Source of the DNA: Setophaga petechia
Lineage: Eukaryota > Chordata > Aves > Passeriformes > Parulidae
Direction of reading: 5' to 3'
Assembly (NCBI GenBank): GCA_024362935.1
Contig: JANCRA010000033.1
Coordinates: 7,955,001-8,019,000 of the forward strand
DNA: 64,000 bases
In this document: positions 40,467 through 52,205 of the stretch, in pieces
Layout of the letters: each line of letters begins with the position of its first letter
Position numbering within the stretch: position 1 is the first letter of the stretch
Position numbers and translations under genes: made by a program
The notes under the pieces: model-generated
Seen by the model: the letters and a program-made list of their open reading frames with translations, nothing else
The model's database searches: none
What the model was told of the DNA's origin: nothing

Positions 40467-43400
40467 GTGAGGCGGCGGGGATGGAGGAAGATGAGGATGA
40501 GGATGAGGATGGTGATGGGGATGGGATGATGATGGGAGGGTGATGGTGATGGGGATGGGATGGGGATGGTGATGGGGATGGGGATGGGGATGGGGATGCC
40601 GCGCCGGGAGCGCCCCGCGCTCAGGGCGGGTTTCTGGCTCTCCCAGGCTCAGTACCACCGGCGCTTCGGGAAGATTTTCCGCATGAAGCTGGGCGCCTTC
40701 GACTCGGTGCACATCGCGGCGCCCTGCCTGCTGGAGGCTCTGTACCGCCGCGAGAGCGCCTGCCCCCAGCGCCTCGAGATCAAGCCCTGGAAAGCATATC
40801 GCGACTATCGCGACGAAGCCTACGGGCTGCTCATCCTGTGAGTGCTGCCCGCAGCATCCCGGCGGGGCTGCGGGGATCCCTGTGCCCGGGGGATGCTCGG
40901 AGCGCGGACCGGGGGTCCCGGGGGTCCCGGGCTGCTCCCCGAGCGTGGCCGGGGCTCGTCCCCACCCCGAGGATCCCCCGGTTGTGCCGTGGGTGCGGTG
41001 GAGCATCAGCAGTGCGGGTTTGGGGATTTTTTTCTGTTTACATTCTTCTTGGAGCTTTCCGCTCTCCAACTCGCTGTTTTTGTTTTGGTGCAGGGAGGGA
41101 AAGGACTGGCAGAGGGTCAGAAGTGCCTTTCAGAAGAAACTGATGAAGCCCCGGGAGGTTATGAAACTGGACACGGCGATCAATGAGGTACCGAGCTCTG
41201 AGAAATCCCTGCTCTCTCTGCTGCCCTGCAAGCCTGGGGAGCTGAAGCAGGTCCGGTTTATCTGGACAGCTTTGTTTACTCCACAGTGATAAACCACGAG
41301 CTCAGACCCAGAACATTCAGGGAACAACGAGTACAAACTCACTGCCAGGGTCTGAGACCACGCAGAATCCTGGAGCTGAGAGTGTCTCCGCAGAAAAACA
41401 GGATTATTCCATAAGGATCCCGGCTCCTGCAAACAGCTTTTCCCTGCTTTTCCTGCATGCAGTAATTTTTACCCCTTCATTCTTCTGCTCCTCCCCTGAG
41501 GGAACACCTCTGTCCTTAACCTCTGTGCTCCTGGGGAGGCTGAGGAGCATCTGTGACAAACACCTTAATCCTGAGTTGTGAAACCCCAGCTGGTGAGGGA
41601 TTGCATCCCCGCGAGGGCAGCACAGTTCGTGGAAGCACCGCAGCTCGTCAAATCCTAACACTTGTTCACACAGGGGGAAGTTGAATCTTGTTCAAAGAAC
41701 GGGGAACAAAAGGATTCCTCCCATGCAAGATTGTTATCTGCTCAAAAGACAGTTGAAATGCTGAATTACACCGGATTTTTATTCATTGATGTCATTTTAT
41801 TCCCTTCTTTTCTCTCTCTTCTCTCCACCATTTAGGTCCTGGAGGACTTTATGTACAGAATAGATGAAATTTGTGACCACAATGGCCAGATGGAAGATAT
41901 CTATTCAGAATTCAACAAGTGGTCTTTTGAAAGTGAGTTGGGTTTTGCCTGAGTGTGGTGCACCTGCCAGGGCATTGCAGTTAAAATATGATCAGGGATG
42001 AATGTGTTGGCTGGTTATTTCCAAACTCTCAGCTATAATATCATGGAAAGAGAGCTGCAGAACAGCCAGGGACTGTCAGTGCAAAATTTATCAGCACAAA
42101 TATAATTTTCTGCCTAGCTACCTGCATGGCTTACAAAAATCCAAACATTCCAATGATTTATAAATCAAAATTTGAGGGGATTATGGTTCGTTTATCTAGA
42201 GTGGGATCAGATAACACAGAGCCCTTTTTGTCCATCTGATATTTGTTAACTATCAGCAGGATCAATGAAATATTCCAATAACAGAGCGCTGGCTGTAGGC
42301 AAAGACTGGAAAATCCCATTTCCAGTGTTTACACTGGGATTGAGGAGGGCTGGAATGAGTTACCAAGGCAGAGCCACATCCTCAGGAACCTCTCAGAGCT
42401 CCCTGAGGAATGTGCCAGGGATGACACAGGGCACAAAGTGGCTCAGGGACTCCCAAAAAAAGGGATGGGGATGGTTGGGAGCAGTGACTGATCCAGCCCT
42501 GCCAGCCCAGCTGCCCTTGGCTGCCTGCTCTGGGCTGGGCTCCTCAAAGTGGATTTTTTCCCACTGTCAGTGGTGATGGCTGCACTTGGATTTTTTCCCA
42601 CTGTCAGTGGTGATGGCTGCTTTTGGAAAGGCAGAAATTAGAAGAGACACTTTGAAAAGAAATGGGAAAAAAGACAAATGGAAAAGGTGCAGAGTGGGAT
42701 GCTCTGCTCAGTGCCTGCTGTGGGAAGGAGTGGGGAATGCTGTGGGAGATGCCTCCTCAAGCCCTGTTCTCCTGCCACTCACTTTTCTTCAGTAAAGTCA
42801 CCAAATATGAGTGAAAATTTTCTTCAGTAAAGTGACCAAAATTGCAGTTCTGCTGCTGGGGGGGGATCAGTGTCACTTCTCACTGTGCAGAAATGGGCCC
42901 CAAGCTGGAAACCCTCCCTGGGGCCAGGGCAAACAAGCAGGAGATGTTTCACCAGTGCTGCTCTGCCAGGTCTGCACCAAGGAACACCTTCAGAAGCTCA
43001 CCCAAGCCATTCCTGGGTGATAAATGATGCATCCCACACGGCCTTTTGTTTATGAATTTAATTATAACATTGCCTAACCACAGGTATCTGTCTGGTGCTG
43101 TATGGAAAGAGGTTTGGCCTCCTGCAGCAGGACGTAGAAGAAGAAAGTCTGAACTTCATCAAGGCTGTAAAAACGGTATGGAGGGGTCTCTGCTGGGGCT
43201 GTGGGGGTTTTTCATCCCTGCTGTTAATGAGAGGCAGCAATTTAAAGGAGACTGCTGGAAAGAGCAGCTCAGGCTTCTGTGCCCAACAGGTGCCCAGCTA
43301 ATCCTGAACTGCTGCCTCCTTTATGCAATGCCTCAGTCTGTTGTAATAAAGCAGACAGGACTCAGTTTCTATATGCAGGAAAAGCCCCTTTTTATTCACA

Positions 43401-46400
43401 TTTTTACACAGACCTCATGTGCACCTAAAATTGGTTAATAGCTTTCTTGCCAATTACCCTATTACTTAGTAAAAGATATTTTATTTGTCCATCAAATCCC
43501 CCTAATCTTGAATTGTTTCTATATTTTTTTCACTGATTCTCATGAGACAGATCCCTGGTCATCACAGCTGCACTTGTTTTTCTCCCCAGGAATAGTTAAT
43601 TCTTGTGTTAATGAACTCTCTCAAGCTGTTTTCACATAGAAACTTGCAAGCTGCTGTTAGCTGAGGTAGCCAAGCTAATCCATGTTTTTTAAGATATTTT
43701 CATATCTTATAAATAATATTTTAATAAATAATATTTTATTACCTGTCTGCACCCTCAGTGTGCCAGGGAAATGCTGAGTGGCCATCAGGGCAGCCCTGGA
43801 GGAGCATTGTCAGCTTGGCTGGTGACTCTGCTCCCCTGTGGGACCCTGCAGGCTGGGGCTGTGCCTTGCTGGGGGTTTGGGGTGCAAACTGCCTCAGCTC
43901 ACTCCTCACACACGGGCAGCCAGCCCTGCCTGGCATTTCAGCCCATCTGCTGTCAAGGGACAGGGGGGCACTGCCAACAATGCCCTGTCCCACTCCCAGC
44001 AGTGCCTAAAATCAAGGGGGCTCCTGGCTGCCCCTGGTTCTTCCCCCTCAGTAGACTCAGAGCCATCCTCTCAGTCCAGGATGGAAAATCCAGCAGAATT
44101 TTGCCTTCCTGAAAATCTCCCTCTGCTTCCCAGCCTGGTGCTGGTCAGGGGCTGCAGGGAGAGGGGTGGAAAGAGATTAAAGAGAGATTTCCCCCACAGA
44201 TGATGGCCACGTTTGGGATGATGATGGTGACCCCTGTGGAGCTGCACAAGGGGCTCAACACCAAGGTCTGGCAAGCTCACACCAAGGCATGGGATGATAT
44301 ATTTAAAACAGGTCATTATTTAACCCCAATTTATCTCCTTTCTCTTTATCTCTGTCCTCTCCTTGCTGGGATTGATTTTTTCATGCTTGCTGCTGTTAAT
44401 CCCCACCCTCAGCACGGATTAAAGCACATTTACTGTACCTAAACAGGGATTATTCCCATGTGGGAGCAGGTTTTGGTGACTAACACCCAGGCTGTGGGGC
44501 AATATCCAATTCCCAGGGAAATCCCAGGATTCTGGGAGCCAGCAAAGTCATGGCACCACTTTAATCTGTCCTAAAAGGAAATTCAAAATGTATCATCTCT
44601 ATAAAGGCAAGGGTATAAATGAAAAGGGACTTCCCTCAAAGACTCATTTTCTTGACAAACAAGAATTGTGCATGCAGCAAAAACCTGTTTGCTAAAAATA
44701 AAAAATTATAGCTTTTCTGAACAACCTGTAACATAGTTGTAAATCCTAAACCCAGAAAAAATTTAAATAATAAGGTGCAGTTTGGCTTTTTGACAATTTA
44801 AAGTAATTTGGCCTTCCAAGTTTAAAAATTGCTCAAACTCCAGATATGAAGTTAAGCTTTTATTTTTAATTTTTTAAAATTTCATTGATTTAAACAGTGA
44901 GAGGCATAACTAAAGGCTGAGAAAGCTTTTGGAAGGTTGTAACACTGAGATTATTTCCCTTGGGTATTTGAGTCCCAAGGCTTTTTATCCTGTCAGCTGC
45001 ACACTCATTTTATTGCTTCTTGGTTTATGGGCTTTAGGAAAGACACTTTAAACCAGTTTTGCTCAGAAAAACCAGTTTGACACCTTCACTTAATGTGAAT
45101 AATTCCTCACAGGAACTGTTTTTAACAGCTGGGATACTCCTGAGCAAAACCTGTTTCTTTTTATTTAAATAAAAACCCCAGCATGTCAAAATTTGGCATC
45201 TCTTTGTGCCTTCCCCTGGTAAATCCAAGGTTTACATTTCCCCTCGGGGGTACTGGGTGCTAAATCCCTTTGATTTTCTAACACCTTGATCCCCTTTGAA
45301 AACCCCAGGTAATAAATTTTACACCCTCGTGTTTCTGTTTGCTGAATATTTCCCTGATTTCCTCCCCTAATTGAAGGGAGCTGAACTCCTCAGAGCTCCT
45401 CTGACGAGGCAGACGGGAGACCTTGCTCACCCTCTGATGATCGACAAGTCTCAGATTTATTGATTAACAGGCACACTTTTATAATCACAGTAATAAGGCT
45501 CATACATATTGCAAAAGTAGAGCTCACTATTGGTCAGCTATAAAAAGTCAGTCCCACCTTTCTCAGGATGTTTGTGGCTTCTTTTTTTTTACCTCCTGTT
45601 ATCACAGATTTTCTTGAACAGCTTCTTGCTCAAAGAAACCGTGTCCTTGAATTAGGCAGCTGTTGCTTTCTCAGATGGATTTTCTCACATCTATTTTCCA
45701 TCAGCTATGTCTCAATAAAAAACTGTCCACACTCCTCCTCTGCTGAAAAGCCATTTTTGGGACTGAATTTGTTTGCAAAGTGACCCCACCATTCTTTATT
45801 CCCTCTAAATACCCTCATTATTTACCCACTGCTTGCAAACAGAGCACAGCTTGGCCCTTGGGTGGGTTTGGTGTGTTTCTATGGCACTGGCAGTGATTTT
45901 TCCCTCATTCTGCCCTCCCAGCCAAGCACTCCATCGACAGCAGGCTGCAGAGGCACTCTGCTGACCCTCAGGGGGATTTTCTGTGTGACATCTACTCGGG
46001 GGGACAGCTGTCCAGGAAGGAGCTGTACGCTGCCATCGCAGAGCTGCAGATCGCCGGCGTCGAGACGGTAACGGCGACGGGCTCAGGGTTTAGATCTCCC
46101 TGCAATTCAAATTCCCCCAATTCTCTTCTTAGCTGCAGATCCCCAGCATGGAGATGGTACCTGGGATGTGCCCAGGGTTTAGATCTCCCTGCAATTCAAA
46201 TTCCCCCAATTCTCTCCTTAGCTGTAGATCCCCAGCATGGAGACAGTAACTGCGATGTGCCCAGGGTTTGAATCCTCCCAGTTCCCTCCTTAGGGTTCAA
46301 ATTCCCTCCCTGGGCTTCAAATTACCCCAATTCCCTCCGTAGCTGCAGATCCCCATCATGAAGATGGTAACCACAATGTGCCCAGGGTTTGAATCCTCCC

Positions 46401-49400
46401 AATTCCCTCCTTAGGGTTCCAATTCCCTCCCTGGGCTTCAAATGACCCCAATTCCCTCCGTAGCTGCAGATCCCCATCATGGAGATGGTAACTGGGATGT
46501 GCCCAGGGTTTAGATCCTCCCAGTTCCCTCCTTTGGGTTCAAATTCCCTCCCTGGGCTTCAAATTACCCCAATTCTCTCCTTCGGGCTCCAATTCCCTCC
46601 CTGGGCTTCAAATGACCCCAATTCCCTCCTTAGGGCTCCAATTCCCTCCCTGGGCTTCAAATGACCCCAATTCCCTCCTTAGGGCTCCAATTCCCTCCCT
46701 GGGCTTCAAATGACCCCAATTCCCTCCTTAGCTGCAGATCCCCATCATGGAGATGGTAACTGGGATGTGCCCAGGGTTTAGATCCTCCCAGAATCCTCCT
46801 TAGGGCTCCAATTCGCTCCCTGGGGTTCAAATTAACCCAATTCCCTCCTTAGCTGCAGATCCCCAACATGGAGGTGGTAACTGGGATGTGCCCAGGGTTT
46901 AGATCTCCCTGCAATTCAAATTTCCCCAATTCTCTCCTTAGCTGCAGATTCTCAGCATGGAGACGGTAACTGGGATGTGACCAGGGTTTAATTACCCCCA
47001 GTTCCCTTCTTGGGGTTCAAACTCCCCCAGTTCCCTCCCTGGGGTTCAAATTCCCCCAATTCCCTCCTTAGCTGCAGATTCCCATAATGGAGATGGTAAC
47101 TGGGATGTGCCCAGGGTTTAATTACCCCCAGGTTCAAATTCCCCCAGTTTCCTCCTTACCTGCAGGTCCCCAGCATGGACATGGTAAAGCTGATTTTCCA
47201 AGGGTTCAAATCTCCCCAATTCCCTCCTTAGGGCTCAAATTACCCCAATTCTCTCCTTACCTGCAGGTCCCCAGCATGGAGACAGTAACTGGGATGTGCC
47301 CAGGGTTTAAATCCTCCCAGTTCCCTCCTCAGGGTTCAAATTCCCCCAAATCCCTCCTTAGGGTTTAAATCACCCCCCAGTAAATTCCCTCAGTTCCCTC
47401 CTTAGGCTTTAAATTCCCCCAGTTCCCTCCTTAGCTGCAGATCATCAAGGAGGAGATGGTAAAGCTGATTTTTTAAGGGTTCAAATTCCCCCCAGTTCCT
47501 TCCTTAGCTGCAGATTGCTGGGATTTTCCAAGGGTTTAAATTCCCTCCTTAGCTGCAGATCATCAAGGTGGAGATGGTGAACCTGATCTTTCAAGGGTTC
47601 AAATTCTCCCCAGTTCCTTCCTTAGCTGCAGATTGTTGGGGTGGAGATGGTAGAATTTATTTTCCAAGGGTTCAAATTCCCCCCAGTTCCCTCCTTAGCT
47701 GCACATCACAGGCTGGAGATGGTAAAGCTGATTTTCCAAGGGTGCAAATCATCCCATTCCCCCCTTCCTTCCACACCCTGAGCAGCAGCACACCTGGAAG
47801 TGACTTCATCCTGAAGTGGCCTCAGTGGCCCAAGTGCAGATGGATTTTGAACTGAAATCCCTGCATTTTGACCTGAAACTCCCAAACTTTTAATTCTGCA
47901 GGACAGCTGGGACTGCTCATAACCCCTCAGGCTGTCAAAATTCCATAAAGCTGTGCCCAGCCAGAAATGTTGCTTTGAATTTTGGGCAAATTCTTCTTTC
48001 TGTGCCTGTAAAAGGAGAACTTCACCTTTCTTTTTGCTCTGTTCCAGACAGCCAACAGCCTGCTGTGGGCTCTGTACAACCTCTCCCGCAATCCACACGT
48101 CCAGCAGAAGCTTTTCCAGGAAATCCAGAGAGTTTTGGGTGCTCAGCAGAGCCCGAGTGCAGAGAGCCTGAGGAACATGCCCTACCTGAAAGCCTGTCTG
48201 AAAGAATCCATGAGGTAAAATCCCCAAATCCTTCAAAACAATCCCCAAGTGCTTCACCAGCTTCTTTGTACAAGGGAGAAGGAATTTTCCAGCACTTGGA
48301 ATTTTGTTCATCTTGCTGCTTGAGGGAAATATGAGAGATAAAAAAGGGAATTTGATAGAAATTTAACCAATTCTTCTCTTTCCCTGCAGATTGACCCCAT
48401 CAGTGCCTTTCACCACCCGCACCATCGACACAGAAATGGTTCTGGGCAATTACATGCTGCCCAAAGGGGTAAGGCAATTAATTCCGTTTATTGGGATTGT
48501 TTTTAATTTATTAATTGCCCTTTAAACCACAGAGGTTGCTCATATTTCAGTTTCTAACTGGCTTTGCCAAAGTACCAGCCCCAGGACAAGGCATGAGGGA
48601 TTCACCCCAAGGATTCCCATAAACACAAACCCACACCTGCCTGCACTGCAGCTGGACTTAGAAATATTTGCCTGAAACAATTTTGATGTGCTATACCAAC
48701 TTTTTTTTCGAATTTTCTCATTATTCTCTGAGGAAACCACAACCTTTTCTACGTTCCAATTGATTTTTTGGGAATTCCTTGTCCTCTCCTGAGGAAGCTG
48801 CTGTGCTGTGAAAAACACATTCACTTTCTTGTGAAAATTTTAAAAGTTTTTTAAAGGACAATAGGAGACAAGGACTACAGAGCAAAGGTTGTTATGGTTG
48901 GATGTATCTTGGTACTTAGCTAAGAGTACACTTGTTATTTTGGAAAATATTTTTATCTACTATTTCTATTACATTAGTTTGTTACATATTCATAAACAAT
49001 CATGCATAGTAAACTTTTTCTTTAAGCTAGTTTGCATATTTTAAGAACTGTTTGGTATGGCTCTTGTTTGGTTTTACTCTTTTAGAGCATGAGTATTCTT
49101 TGGTTACGGGTTTTAGCCTATTTTTTCAGGTTTTGGTTTTTTAGAGCATGCATATTCTTTGGTTGTGGATTTTAGCCTTTTATTTTATTACTTTTAATTT
49201 TTGGACTTTGGTCTACACTGTTTTCAGATGTGAGAGTTGATAGTTGTTCTGTAGCAGGGTCTTCTTCATATGTTCATTGGATGTTATCTTATTTAATTAG
49301 GTATTTAACACAAGCATACTTATTTCAGCTATTTCATACTATGTCCAAGCTTAATTAACAACAGAAATAAAAATTATATCTTTATAACAAAGTCACTTTA

Positions 49401-52205
49401 GCCTCACACATATAGAATCCACTTTACTATTTGCCAAAGCCAATGCTGTGATGTGTGTGTATGACATTCTCCACACTGGAGCCGCTTCCCTCGGGAGCTG
49501 GGGGTGGCTTTGTGACCTGTCCCTGTCCTGCCTCGCTGCAGACGGTGCTGATGATCAACAGCCACGCCCTGGGCTGCAGTGAGGACTATTTCAGGGGCTG
49601 GGCAGAGTTCAGGCCCGAGCGCTGGCTGCACAGGGGCTCCATCCATCCCTTCTCCCACGTCCCCTTCGGCGTCGGCAGGAGGATGTGCGTGGGGCGCCGC
49701 CTGGCCGAGCTGCAGCTGCACCTGGCCCTCTGCTGGGTAAGCGCCCCACAAAGGGAACCTGGGGGGTTTGTCCTCAGCTGAGCACAGGCACAGCCCAGCA
49801 CGCTCATTGTGGGCACAGCAGGCACAGCCTTCCCAGGGAATTTTCCTGGGGAAGGCAGTGAGAGAGCTCAGACAAGAAGAGAAAGCAATTCTTGTCTCTA
49901 TTTGTGCTCCTGGTTTTTGGCACATGTGGAATGTGTTATGGAGTATTTGCTGTTCCTGTTGTTTGGCACATGTGGAATGTGTTATGGAGATTGTTTGTTT
50001 ATTGTGGGGTGTGGAGGTCCAGGGACATCACACCATAACCAATATGATCCAGTGAAGCCAAATTTATTATCCTTAAAAAGGCTGTATTTATAATAAATCT
50101 CTACTGTCCCTGGGTCTCTAGCTAATACATGATTGGTTAATCCTAGCTGTTCACATGTCTAAATTAGAATGCTGATTGGATCACCTAATTTTTCATGTCT
50201 TGCTGTGGCTGTCTGGCCCATCCATGACTTCTCTTTTTTCTTACTCTCCCGAGCTCACTGACAAACCTGCTGAGTCCTGATGACCCTTCTTCTTGTATCT
50301 CTTTCAAGGATATACCAACCCCATTTCTGAATATGTCCATTTTCCATTGTTTGTGGACGTGCCCATTATCCATTAGTACAAGCAGGCTGGATTGTGCATC
50401 GGCTGAATATGGCCCTTGTCCTGCCAAAACTCCTCAACCTGCAAAAAACTCTCAACAGTTTGAGAGTGATTTCTTAATCACTGTGATTTCTGGACCCTGG
50501 TGATGGTTGGATTGTTTGGCCAGTTGGGTCAAAGCTGTGTTGTGACTGAAATGGTCACGGGTTTTTCTTTGGTGTGATACAGTACAGCAGTAGAGTTTAA
50601 TACAGTACAGCTGAATGAGGCAGCTGCTCAGCCTGGTGAATGGTGCAGCCAGAGCAGGTTACCCCAGGCTGGGGCTGCACTGACAGCTGTGCTGTGTGCC
50701 CACAGCTGATCCGCAGGTACCGCGTGCTGGCCACGGACCGGGAGCCGCTGGAGACGCTGCACTCGGGGATCCTCATCCCGGGCAGGGCCCTGCCCATCGC
50801 CCTCCAGCCACGAGCAGGTCTGGACAGACACACACCTGGTGCTGCTCGGGCACAGACACACACCTGGGTGATGCTTGGGCACACAAACACACACCTGTGC
50901 TCTGCTTGTGCACACAAACACACGCCTGGGTGCTGCTTGGGCACACAAACACACACCGGGGTGCTGCTTGGGCACAAACACACACCTGGGTGCTGCTTGG
51001 GCACAGACACACACCTGTGCTCTGCTTGGGCACACACACACACCTGGGTGCTGCTTGGGCACACAAACACACACCTGGGTGCTGCTTGGGCACAGACACA
51101 CACCTGTGCTCTGCTTGGGCACACACACACACCTGGGTGCTGCTTGGGCACACACACACCTGTGCTCTGCTTGGGCACACACACACACCTGTGCTCTGCT
51201 TGGGCACACACACACACACACATCTGGGTGCTGCTTGGGCATAAAACACACACCTGTGCTCTGCTTGGGCACACACACACACACACCTGTGCTCTGCTTG
51301 GGCACAAACACACACATCTGCTCTGCTTGTGCACACAACCACAAACCTGTGCTCCTACTTCTGCACCAAAACACACACCTGTGTTCCTGCTTGTGCACAA
51401 AACCACACCTGTGTTCCTGCACACTGCAGGCTCTGCTGGCACCTGAGCTGGGATTTCTGTGCCAACGTTTGGGTAAACAGCTGATGTCTGTCTGCTCTTC
51501 ACTCTCACAGGGCCAGAGCCATCCTGGGCCTTTATTTTAACAAATGAATGCTGTCCCAGTTCAGTGTTTTATCAGGAAATGTCCTGTGTTTCACACAGCT
51601 CATGGCTCTGGAGTCAATTTTATATCCACATTTTCTGTGCCTGATGCAGCTCAAAAAGGGGGAAATCAACATATACCCACTGCTGCAGAAAATAACAGCC
51701 AGGGCTTGTTAGAACTTCACTGCAGTCCCAAAGATATTTCCTGGAAAAAACAATTTGATCTTGGGCATCAATTTGCAGATTAAATAGAAGATGCCTTAGT
51801 GAAGGAATTGCTCACTGCAAAATTTAGATAACAAAGCTTCATTTGAGGCAAGACAGAGAAAAGTCTATTTGTAAATAGTTGTGCAGTGTTGCAATTTAAT
51901 ATTTTGAATGTAGGATTTTCTTTCTCACAAGTTTATACAAACAAGCTAACAAAATAACTTACTTGTGCAACAACCTAAATTGAGAAAACAAGTCTCTGAT
52001 CCAGAATGAAATCCTCCAGTTAGAAATCCAGGACATTTCAATGCTGGGGAAGATATTTTTTTGCCAGCCAACATCCCAGGAAAAAAATACCTCCCAGTAT
52101 AATCTGAATATTCACTCCTTTAACTGAAGTCTGTTCAGTGCTGTTTGCTTTGACATAACCACTATAAATATTCTTTTTTTGCTCAATACAGGTGGCAAGA
52201 AATAA
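40272..52205 (+). CDS. CYP24A1: Vitamin D 24-hydroxylase, mitochondrial cytochrome P450 (gene span, start to proposed stop)
   Basis: Inner-mitochondrial-membrane P450 that uses adrenodoxin electrons to hydroxylate calcitriol and 25-hydroxyvitamin D at C24/C23, starting their breakdown. Coding exons: 40272-40466, 40647-40837, 41094-41187, 41836-41932, 43084-43175, 44200-44311, 45922-46067, 48048-48214, 48390-48468, 49542-49736, 50706-50817 and, proposed, 52192-52205. All introns are GT-AG and all phases join, giving about 497 aa (human is 514). Visible hallmarks: Arg-rich presequence lacking acidic residues (about 1-34); [11 protein letters not shown] before the first helix; I-helix AGVET|T (305-310); ExxR as ESMR (362-365); FRPERW (414-419); heme loop [10 protein letters not shown] with Cys440 as thiolate ligand. 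Residues such as [13 protein letters not shown] and [11 protein letters not shown] match mammalian CYP24A1 from memory. The start ATG has a strong context (accATGg) and lies only 41 bp after the TATA box, so the leader would be very short. Odd points: an exon-derived repeat in intron 7 and no stop in exon 11. Confidence 0.95.
40480..40600 (+). repeat. (GATGRG)n microsatellite in CYP24A1 intron 1
   Basis: Runs of gatgag and gatggg fill most of the 180-bp intron 1. Confidence 0.85.
40647..40837 (+). CDS. CYP24A1: CYP24A1 exon 2
   Basis: Acceptor ctctcccag|gctcag, donor atcct|gtgagt. Encodes [16 protein letters not shown] through AYGLLI and two bases of the next Leu codon. Very close to mammalian CYP24A1 in LLEALYR and [13 protein letters not shown]. 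Confidence 0.95.
41094..41187 (+). CDS. CYP24A1: CYP24A1 exon 3
   Basis: Acceptor ttggtgcag|ggaggg, donor aatgag|gtaccg. Completes the split Leu codon and reads [31 protein letters not shown], in phase 0 at its end. Contains the C-helix WxxxR motif (WQRVR), a heme-propionate contact in P450s. Confidence 0.95.
41836..41932 (+). CDS. CYP24A1: CYP24A1 exon 4
   Basis: Acceptor ccatttag|gtcctg, donor gaaa|gtgagt. Encodes [32 protein letters not shown] plus one base; the alpha-helical NKWSFES segment matches the family. Confidence 0.93.
43084..43175 (+). CDS. CYP24A1: CYP24A1 exon 5
   Basis: Acceptor aaccacag|gtatct, donor aaaacg|gtatgg. Completes Ser and reads [30 protein letters not shown], in phase 0 at its end. 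Confidence 0.93.
43338..43752 (-). mobile_element. Possible solo LTR in CYP24A1 intron 5
   Basis: A+T-rich block that on the minus strand has AATAAAAAGG followed by an R/U5-like end ...TTACAACAG. It is flanked by a 7-bp direct repeat cctcagt (43331-43337 and 43753-43759). Terminal TG/CA lie one base inside these borders, so the assignment is tentative. Confidence 0.45.
44200..44311 (+). CDS. CYP24A1: CYP24A1 exon 6
   Basis: Acceptor cccccacag|atgatg, donor aaaacag|gtcatt (a weak donor). Encodes [37 protein letters not shown] plus one base. [10 protein letters not shown] and LNTKVWQ are strongly family-like. Confidence 0.92.
45402..45731 (-). mobile_element. Solo LTR, family A copy 2, in CYP24A1 intron 6
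   Basis: Inverted copy of the element at 10.2 kb, 330 bp, bounded on the plus strand by TGACGAGG...CTGTCCACA, with perfect duplication ctcctc (45396-45401 and 45732-45737). It lies about 190 bp before exon 7, in antisense orientation to the gene. Confidence 0.9.
45922..46067 (+). CDS. CYP24A1: CYP24A1 exon 7 (start of I-helix)
   Basis: Acceptor gccctcccag|ccaagc, donor gagacg|gtaacg. Encodes [49 protein letters not shown] in two stretches around the family's FLCDIY and SRKELYAA blocks. It ends in phase 0 inside the I-helix acid-alcohol motif (AGVET), with the next Thr at the start of exon 8. Its last 24 coding bases and donor are the parent of the repeat that fills intron 7. Confidence 0.94.
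46041..47721 (+). repeat. Exon-7-derived minisatellite with microexon-like units, CYP24A1 intron 7
   Basis: About 15 copies of the exon 7 end (ctgcagat...gagatg|gtaac) follow the real one. Starts of the copied exon part: 46133, 46222, 46343, 46464, 46732, 46853, 46942, 47072, 47160, 47261, 47435, 47508, 47553, 47626 and 47699. Spacers are pyrimidine-rich (ccccaattctctccttag) and extra ttcaaattccc-type sub-repeats fill the gaps. Eleven copies keep AG before, 24 nt, and GT after. Confidence 0.92.
48048..48214 (+). CDS. CYP24A1: CYP24A1 exon 8
   Basis: Acceptor tgctctgttccag|acagcc, donor atgag|gtaaaa. Begins [16 protein letters not shown], completing the I-helix, and ends in the K-helix ExxR motif (KESM, Arg split across the intron). 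Confidence 0.94.
48390..48468 (+). CDS. CYP24A1: CYP24A1 exon 9
   Basis: Acceptor tttccctgcag|attgac, donor aaaggg|gtaagg. Completes the ExxR Arg, then reads [37 protein letters not shown] is characteristic of CYP24A1. Confidence 0.94.
48807..49444 (+). mobile_element. Possible LTR-derived insertion in CYP24A1 intron 9
   Basis: A+T-rich block starting TGTGAAAAACACATTCACTT, with caaaggttgttatggttgg inside. It resembles a songbird LTR I recall, but I found no clean target duplication; gctgtg occurs on both sides (48800-48805 and 49445-49450). Confidence 0.4.
49542..49736 (+). CDS. CYP24A1: CYP24A1 exon 10 (heme-binding loop)
   Basis: Acceptor cctcgctgcag|acggtg, donor ctgctgg|gtaagc. Encodes 65 residues with the meander FRPERW and the heme loop [20 protein letters not shown]; the Cys is the heme thiolate ligand. 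Confidence 0.95.
50010..50540 (-). mobile_element. Possible LTR-derived block in CYP24A1 intron 10
   Basis: On the minus strand an AATAAA-type signal (gataataaatttggc) is followed by tatggtgtgatgtccctgg and ends ...CCTCCACA, as an R/U5 end would. The 5' border and duplication are not resolved. Confidence 0.35.
50706..50817 (+). CDS. CYP24A1: CYP24A1 exon 11 (no in-frame stop at the usual place)
   Basis: Acceptor gtgtgcccacag|ctgatc. Encodes [21 protein letters not shown] and then [16 protein letters not shown], the family's extreme C-terminus. No stop follows: the frame stays open into a tandem repeat until 51446. A donor cgagcag|gtctgg at 50818 would let it splice to 52192. I prefer that splice because a UTR-like terminal exon with a poly(A) signal lies downstream. 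Confidence 0.85.
50820..51435. repeat. CA-rich minisatellite directly after the exon 11 donor
   Basis: Units of roughly 29-35 bp (tgctgcttgggcacacaa, then acacacacctgg). It begins two bases past the proposed donor. On the plus strand the frame of exon 11 stays open through it to a stop at 51444-51446, giving a His/Thr/Cys/Leu-rich sequence. Confidence 0.9.
51436..52191. other. Rest of CYP24A1 intron 11 (or 3' flank)
   Basis: Unique A+T-rich sequence between the CA-rich minisatellite and the proposed exon 12. Confidence 0.5.

Follow-up and report, generated by a model that had tools for sequence, protein, structure and literature searches.

Tandem repeats lying across an exon-intron boundary have been described in human genes, and as outlined in the report concerned (PMC2812944) such internal repeats can alter splicing. 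Tandem duplication is also a route of intron gain, in which, according to two accounts (PMC4974935, PMC3629103), a new intron arises from an exonic proto-splice site (AGGT or AGGC) or, in potato, from an intron-exon segment. A third related system is the retained intron of OGT, which contains a decoy exon of 143-153 nt with experimental support, as summarized in PMC12017769. The present analysis concerns a stretch of 64,000 nucleotides from Setophaga petechia (Parulidae; assembly GCA_024362935.1, contig JANCRA010000033.1, positions 7,955,001 to 8,019,000 of the forward strand), which as a whole is referred to as the window and which contains CYP24A1. Within intron 7 of this gene the end of exon 7 and its 5' splice site are repeated many times over. 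This array is a minisatellite that spans the donor and derives from exon 7. We consider it likely that splicing from the true donor excises it in full and that its copies serve as decoys seldom or never.

The finding belongs, as a variant, with the boundary tandem repeats (PMC2812944) and the tandem-duplication intron gains (PMC4974935, PMC3629103). It resembles the human repeats in that a minisatellite overlaps an exon-intron boundary. The human cases, as outlined, concern genes of segmental duplications and new introns with transcript support, whereas in CYP24A1 the unit includes the functioning 5' splice site of an exon and a new acceptor-like AG, both known from sequence. With the intron gains by tandem duplication it shares the copying of splice signals, and the fission yeast unit outlined in those accounts is also 24 nt long, with the intron in phase 0. 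Unlike these, the CYP24A1 duplication extends from the exon into an intron that was already there, and no gain of an intron was seen; an exonic AGGT segment duplicated to form a new intron with the protein unchanged was not found, the coding sequence having the ordinary join of exons 7 and 8. The OGT intron (PMC12017769) is similar in containing exon-like AG...GT cassettes, which there, according to the summary, are rarely spliced in; it differs in that CYP24A1 has many short copies, which are known from the nucleotide sequence alone. Among the titles and abstract openings listed in a literature search, none describes an exon-end array in CYP24A1, which does not prove that none has been published.

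The host gene is CYP24A1 on the + strand, the protein of which aligns with rat CYP24A1 (PDB 3k9v) over query residues 32-492. The rebuilt coding sequence, using the direct 46067-48048 join, comprises 12 exons and 1494 bases encoding 497 amino acids, of which 489 are identical to those of a record from Ammospiza nelsoni (Passerellidae); this was the best database match, at 98%, among the matches listed, and heads a cluster of 58 sequences. Exon 7 used as a query against the genome of 1.22 Gb gave one match, namely the CYP24A1 locus itself. The junction of exons 7 and 8 falls between AGVET and TANS, and the conserved AGVETT aligns with rat AAVETT, so that the rebuilt gene and the rat alignment bear out an earlier reading of the letters by themselves (the sequence-only reading), which had put the point of possible insertion between AGVET and T. 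This point adjoins the residues that, from P450 biochemistry, we take to be the acid-alcohol pair of the I-helix.

Tandem Repeats Finder (TRF) and direct-repeat searches showed a complex minisatellite which starts at 46042, inside exon 7, and reaches about 47750; together with the unit alignment this places the end of the exon and its splice site within the repeat unit. The arrays that TRF reported from 46042 to 47749 have periods of 89, 121, 219, 118 and 73, among others. Fifteen intronic copies were located, in agreement with the sequence-only reading, which had spoken of about 15 and had given the span as 46041..47721; the array was indeed present there, with its end lying near 47750 and not at 47721. 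AG, exactly 24 nt and GT are all kept in 11 of the 15 copies, the same number as the sequence-only reading had given, and one of the eleven bears an in-frame stop (the TAG already noticed in the copy at 46222), the other ten being free of stops. The AG-N24-GT pattern taken by itself occurs 188 times in the window, and the spacing of 24 nt is therefore notable only through the homology of the copies. In addition, the region 46068-47750 contains 21 pyrimidine-rich TAG sites in total. As the first spacer closely resembles the spacers that follow copies 1 and 6 (Table 1), exon 7 itself bears the array's first unit and does not simply adjoin the array.

Table 1. Exons of CYP24A1 referred to in the text and components of the intron 7 array (positions in the window)
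Feature	Position	Strand	Basis or remark
CYP24A1 exon 7	45922..46067	+	rebuilt coding sequence and rat 3k9v alignment; last 24 nt (46044-46067) are the repeat parent
Whole array: exon end and 15 intronic copies, spacers with nested 29- and 49-nt subrepeats	46042..47750	+	TRF, direct-repeat searches
Real donor (ACG|GTAACG) with the 65-nt first spacer; of the proximal class	46068..46132	+	58/65 identical to spacers behind copies 46133 and 46853
Copy 1, AG-24-GT	46133..46156	+	
Copy 2, AG-24-GT, in-frame TAG	46222..46245	+	
Copy 3, AG-24-GT	46343..46366	+	
Copy 4, AG-24-GT	46464..46487	+	
Copy 5, AG-24-GT	46732..46755	+	
Copy 6, AG-24-GT	46853..46876	+	
Copy 7, AG-24-GT	46942..46965	+	
Copy 8, AG-24-GT	47072..47095	+	
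Copy 9, AC instead of AG, distal-class donor	47160..47183	+	
Copy 10, AC instead of AG	47261..47284	+	
Copy 11, AG-24-GT, distal-class donor	47435..47458	+	
Copy 12, core truncated, without donor	47508..47522	+	
Copy 13, AG-24-GT, distal-class donor	47553..47576	+	
Copy 14, AG-24-GT	47626..47649	+	with next 72 nt, translated match to the Lonchura insert
Copy 15, core of 23 nt, distal-class donor	47699..47721	+	
CYP24A1 exon 8	48048..48214	+	usual splice partner of exon 7, from rebuilt coding sequence
CYP24A1 last exon	at 52192	+	contributes terminal GGKK and stop, same as A. nelsoni record

The intronic copies derive from the end of exon 7. A degenerate pattern of the core (three mismatches or fewer) matched 13 times in the window, with one match at the parent and 12 at copies, none lying outside 46042-47653, and in 100 dinucleotide shuffles the mean number of matches was 0.00. 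The best ungapped match of a 30-mer of exon 7 in intron 7 was 23/30; 30 control stretches as long as the intron, likewise taken from the window, gave best values of 14 to 17. Chance resemblance was rejected on these two results, and the origin proposed by the sequence-only reading, for which alignment similarity was the test set, stands. Its further proposal, that an acceptor-like site had been made from an exonic AG and pyrimidines derived from the intron, agrees with the sequence before CTGCAG: upstream of the AG there is pyrimidine-rich sequence in the copies and coding sequence in the parent.

Traces of the array were found in other passerines. Among the relatives of the CYP24A1 protein, 120 of 539 were scanned for extra residues at the junction, and the bird records were aligned. 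In the predicted protein of Lonchura striata (Estrildidae; P0008) an insert of 24 residues lies precisely at the point where AGVET would meet TANS. It matches the translated window unit 47626-47721, with identity at 22 of 32 residues when the flanking LQI.GVE is counted in (E 2e-12). A similar stretch occurs in the predicted protein of Hirundo rustica (Hirundinidae; P0009), with 19/29 residues identical to the distal unit (E 1e-11). After the repeat-derived stretch the Hirundo record loses the frame for part of exon 8 and regains it further on, which could be an error of assembly or prediction. The sparrow, Poecile, Platysteira and remaining aligned bird records have a plain exon 7/8 junction. 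A 14-residue insert at the same junction in P0089, a gene prediction from a monkey (Saguinus oedipus), proved unrelated in sequence to the array.

In both passerine records exon 7 appears to be extended as far as a copy's donor, rather than followed by an included microexon. On the evidence of these proteins the repeat unit would directly follow exon 7 in Lonchura and in Hirundo, this first unit being 72 nt long in the former (from the 24 residues) and 73 nt in the latter (from the frame of exon 8), both deduced from the proteins, as against 89 nt in the window species. The array seems to be older than Setophaga petechia and, to judge from these records, may be common to three passerine families.

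The preferred explanation is as follows. In an ancestor of several passerine families the last 24 nt of exon 7, the 5' splice site and about 49 nt of the intron would have been duplicated in tandem. The resulting unit, some 72-73 nt long, would then have multiplied as a minisatellite within intron 7. The spliceosome would normally pair the donor nearest the exon, at 46068, with the acceptor that precedes 48048, the array being excised entire, and the copies would drift free of coding constraint. Some of them would keep sites adequate for occasional cryptic use, chiefly of the donor of a downstream copy, with a frame shift or a stop as the outcome in the window species and an in-frame I-helix insert of 24 residues in Lonchura. 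When exon 7 of the window species is read through, the first two donors (89 and 178 nt) shift the frame and the other twelve lie beyond an in-frame stop at 46269; poison isoforms are therefore possible. An insert in the AGVETT stretch is expected, from general knowledge of P450 enzymes, to cause loss of activity.

Several observations weigh against removal of the array as a whole with little decoy use. Such removal is read off protein records, and two passerine records among the relatives scanned put the repeat unit into protein, which could reflect real use. The donors of six of the eleven AG-24-GT copies score above the real one, up to 6.5, on an approximate scoring matrix. Seven of these eleven copies sit 94-244 nt behind the preceding donor, which leaves enough upstream intron for inclusion, and selection could account for the survival of AG-24-GT in 11 of the 15 copies.

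The locus is a clear natural case in which a live 5' splice site and the coding bases attached to it have been multiplied about 15-fold downstream in a hormone-degrading enzyme, the gene apparently not being lost. The array lends itself to testing how the spliceosome selects one donor among many that are nearly identical, and whether a functional splice site can be rewritten by minisatellite turnover. Were a copy to be used, the insert would land beside the acid-alcohol pair.

An unlikely alternative is that in some passerines splicing from copy donors takes place at an appreciable rate and makes exon 7 longer, with 24 residues added in frame in Lonchura and, elsewhere, shifted or stopped messages lowering the output of CYP24A1. 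The passage of both P0008 and P0009 from AGVET into the repeat unit speaks for it, as do the copies that outscore the real donor, which at 5.3 was the third weakest of the nine CYP24A1 donors scored on that matrix. Against it, P0008 and P0009 are gene predictions and not transcripts; with the Lonchura insert alone as query, no records but these two came out of 9 candidates, the Hirundo match having an E of 5; and the other aligned bird records have the plain junction. Base pairing with U1 also gives the copies no clear advantage, the energy being -5.2 for the real donor and -1.6 to -5.4 for the eleven copies, that is comparable or weaker. The sequence-only reading had held that the copies' donors, of the form ATG|GTAACT, beat the real one at +6. 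This can be kept for the T at +6, present in 7/11 AG-24-GT copies, and not for the rest, as the exact form occurs in only 3/11, five of the eleven score below the real donor on the approximate matrix and U1 pairing is no better.

The donors fall into two classes. Of the 14 copies that have one, the five distal ones begin like GTAAAGCTGATTTTCC; in the parent and the remaining nine the start is nearer to GTAACTGGGATGTG. In a tree of the units, from which copy 47508 was left out, the distal class was split off with a support of 0.99, placements inside the proximal class being poorly supported. The inserts start with VKLDFQG in Lonchura and VKLISKG in Hirundo, resembling VKLIFQG of the distal class, and exon 7 of the window would continue with VTATGSG. 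The intron start of the live exon is thus proximal-class in the window and distal-class in the other two species, from which we infer, from one window and two protein records, that exchange in the array extends to the functional donor. It is tempting to go further and imagine that the series of donor copies in passerine CYP24A1 feeds back on the live site, array variants taking the place of the functional donor through exchange. The unit length of each lineage (72 nt in Lonchura, 73 in Hirundo, 89 in the window species) would then set whether read-through results in a probably inactive enzyme with an I-helix insert or in a degraded message, and vitamin D breakdown would be tunable by minisatellite turnover, a speculation that we hold to be improbable.

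Microexons are shorter than 28 nt and preserve the reading frame, and the known ones are included and conserved. The copies share the size and the preservation of frame (24 nt in 11/15 copies, one with a stop, within a range of 3-27 nt), inclusion and conservation being features of the known microexons, and 11/15 form an intronic cassette with an acceptor and a donor, which are candidate sites by sequence. It might be supposed that single 24-nt copies are included, or that they are bound by splicing factors and slow the removal of intron 7 with no inclusion, leading to an inactive enzyme or to a detained intron; we regard this as quite improbable. The ten stop-free cassettes, the pyrimidine-rich acceptors and the seven copies with sufficient upstream intron are in its favour, and decoy exons are known in retained introns, as summarized in PMC12017769.

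No indication was found, however, that the copies behave as coding exons. When the 13 ungapped copies (47508 and 47699 being left out of this count and of the column test) were compared with their consensus, 4 synonymous and 34 non-synonymous differences were found, the random expectation being 17% synonymous; the differences are partly shared by descent, and this test is therefore indicative only. The AG and GT columns were conserved in 50/52 positions, with a permutation p of 0.11, i.e. with no special conservation. The acceptors of the eleven copies have 12 to 15 pyrimidines among 17 positions but only 3 to 7 T, compared with 15 and 11 for the acceptor of exon 8. Since the donor scores are comparable and the acceptors are poor in T, the copy donors compete on paper and the copy acceptors seem inferior to that of exon 8. 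Scores for branch points were not discriminating, being 3.4 or less in 9/11 AG-24-GT copies and in 5/11 real acceptors.

Four of the eleven AG-24-GT copies sit only 49-65 nt behind the preceding donor, which, judged by the minimum intron length, is too short or borderline for an intron. With several gaps of this size serial inclusion of all copies is implausible, single inclusion being compatible with the distances. A protein search with five microexon peptides and with the distal unit inserted returned only P0008 among 10 candidates, with 54% of the region covered, and no microexon insert; the test is a weak one, the database being clustered at 90% identity so that an insert of eight residues could be hidden. 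The P0008 match probably runs through the read-through stretch. The view of the copies as microexons, raised as a possibility by the sequence-only reading, was accordingly not upheld, given the lack of coding constraint, the conservation of AG and GT at p 0.11 and this weak search. That misassembly of repeat-rich sequence produced the copies is hardly credible and was rejected as the entire explanation, because the copies differ among themselves and their units recur in the Lonchura and Hirundo records, even if minisatellites are hard to assemble and the copy number here could be inexact.

The 64-kb window is full of minisatellites and AT-rich arrays (139 TRF rows), and the birth of an array is therefore not peculiar to intron 7 of CYP24A1. 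Intron 11 has a weak donor, CAG|GTCTGG, at 50818, and less than seven bases further on, at 50824, there begins a minisatellite whose unit is about 29 nt long. The frame of exon 11 is open to 51446 (open reading frame 50640-51446, 268 amino acids), and retention of intron 11 would add about 200 residues. Intron 1 (40467-40646) is only 180 nt long and has a GATGGG-type repeat at 40490-40598, near the donor of exon 1. Introns 1, 7 and 11 thus present three arrays near donors within CYP24A1.

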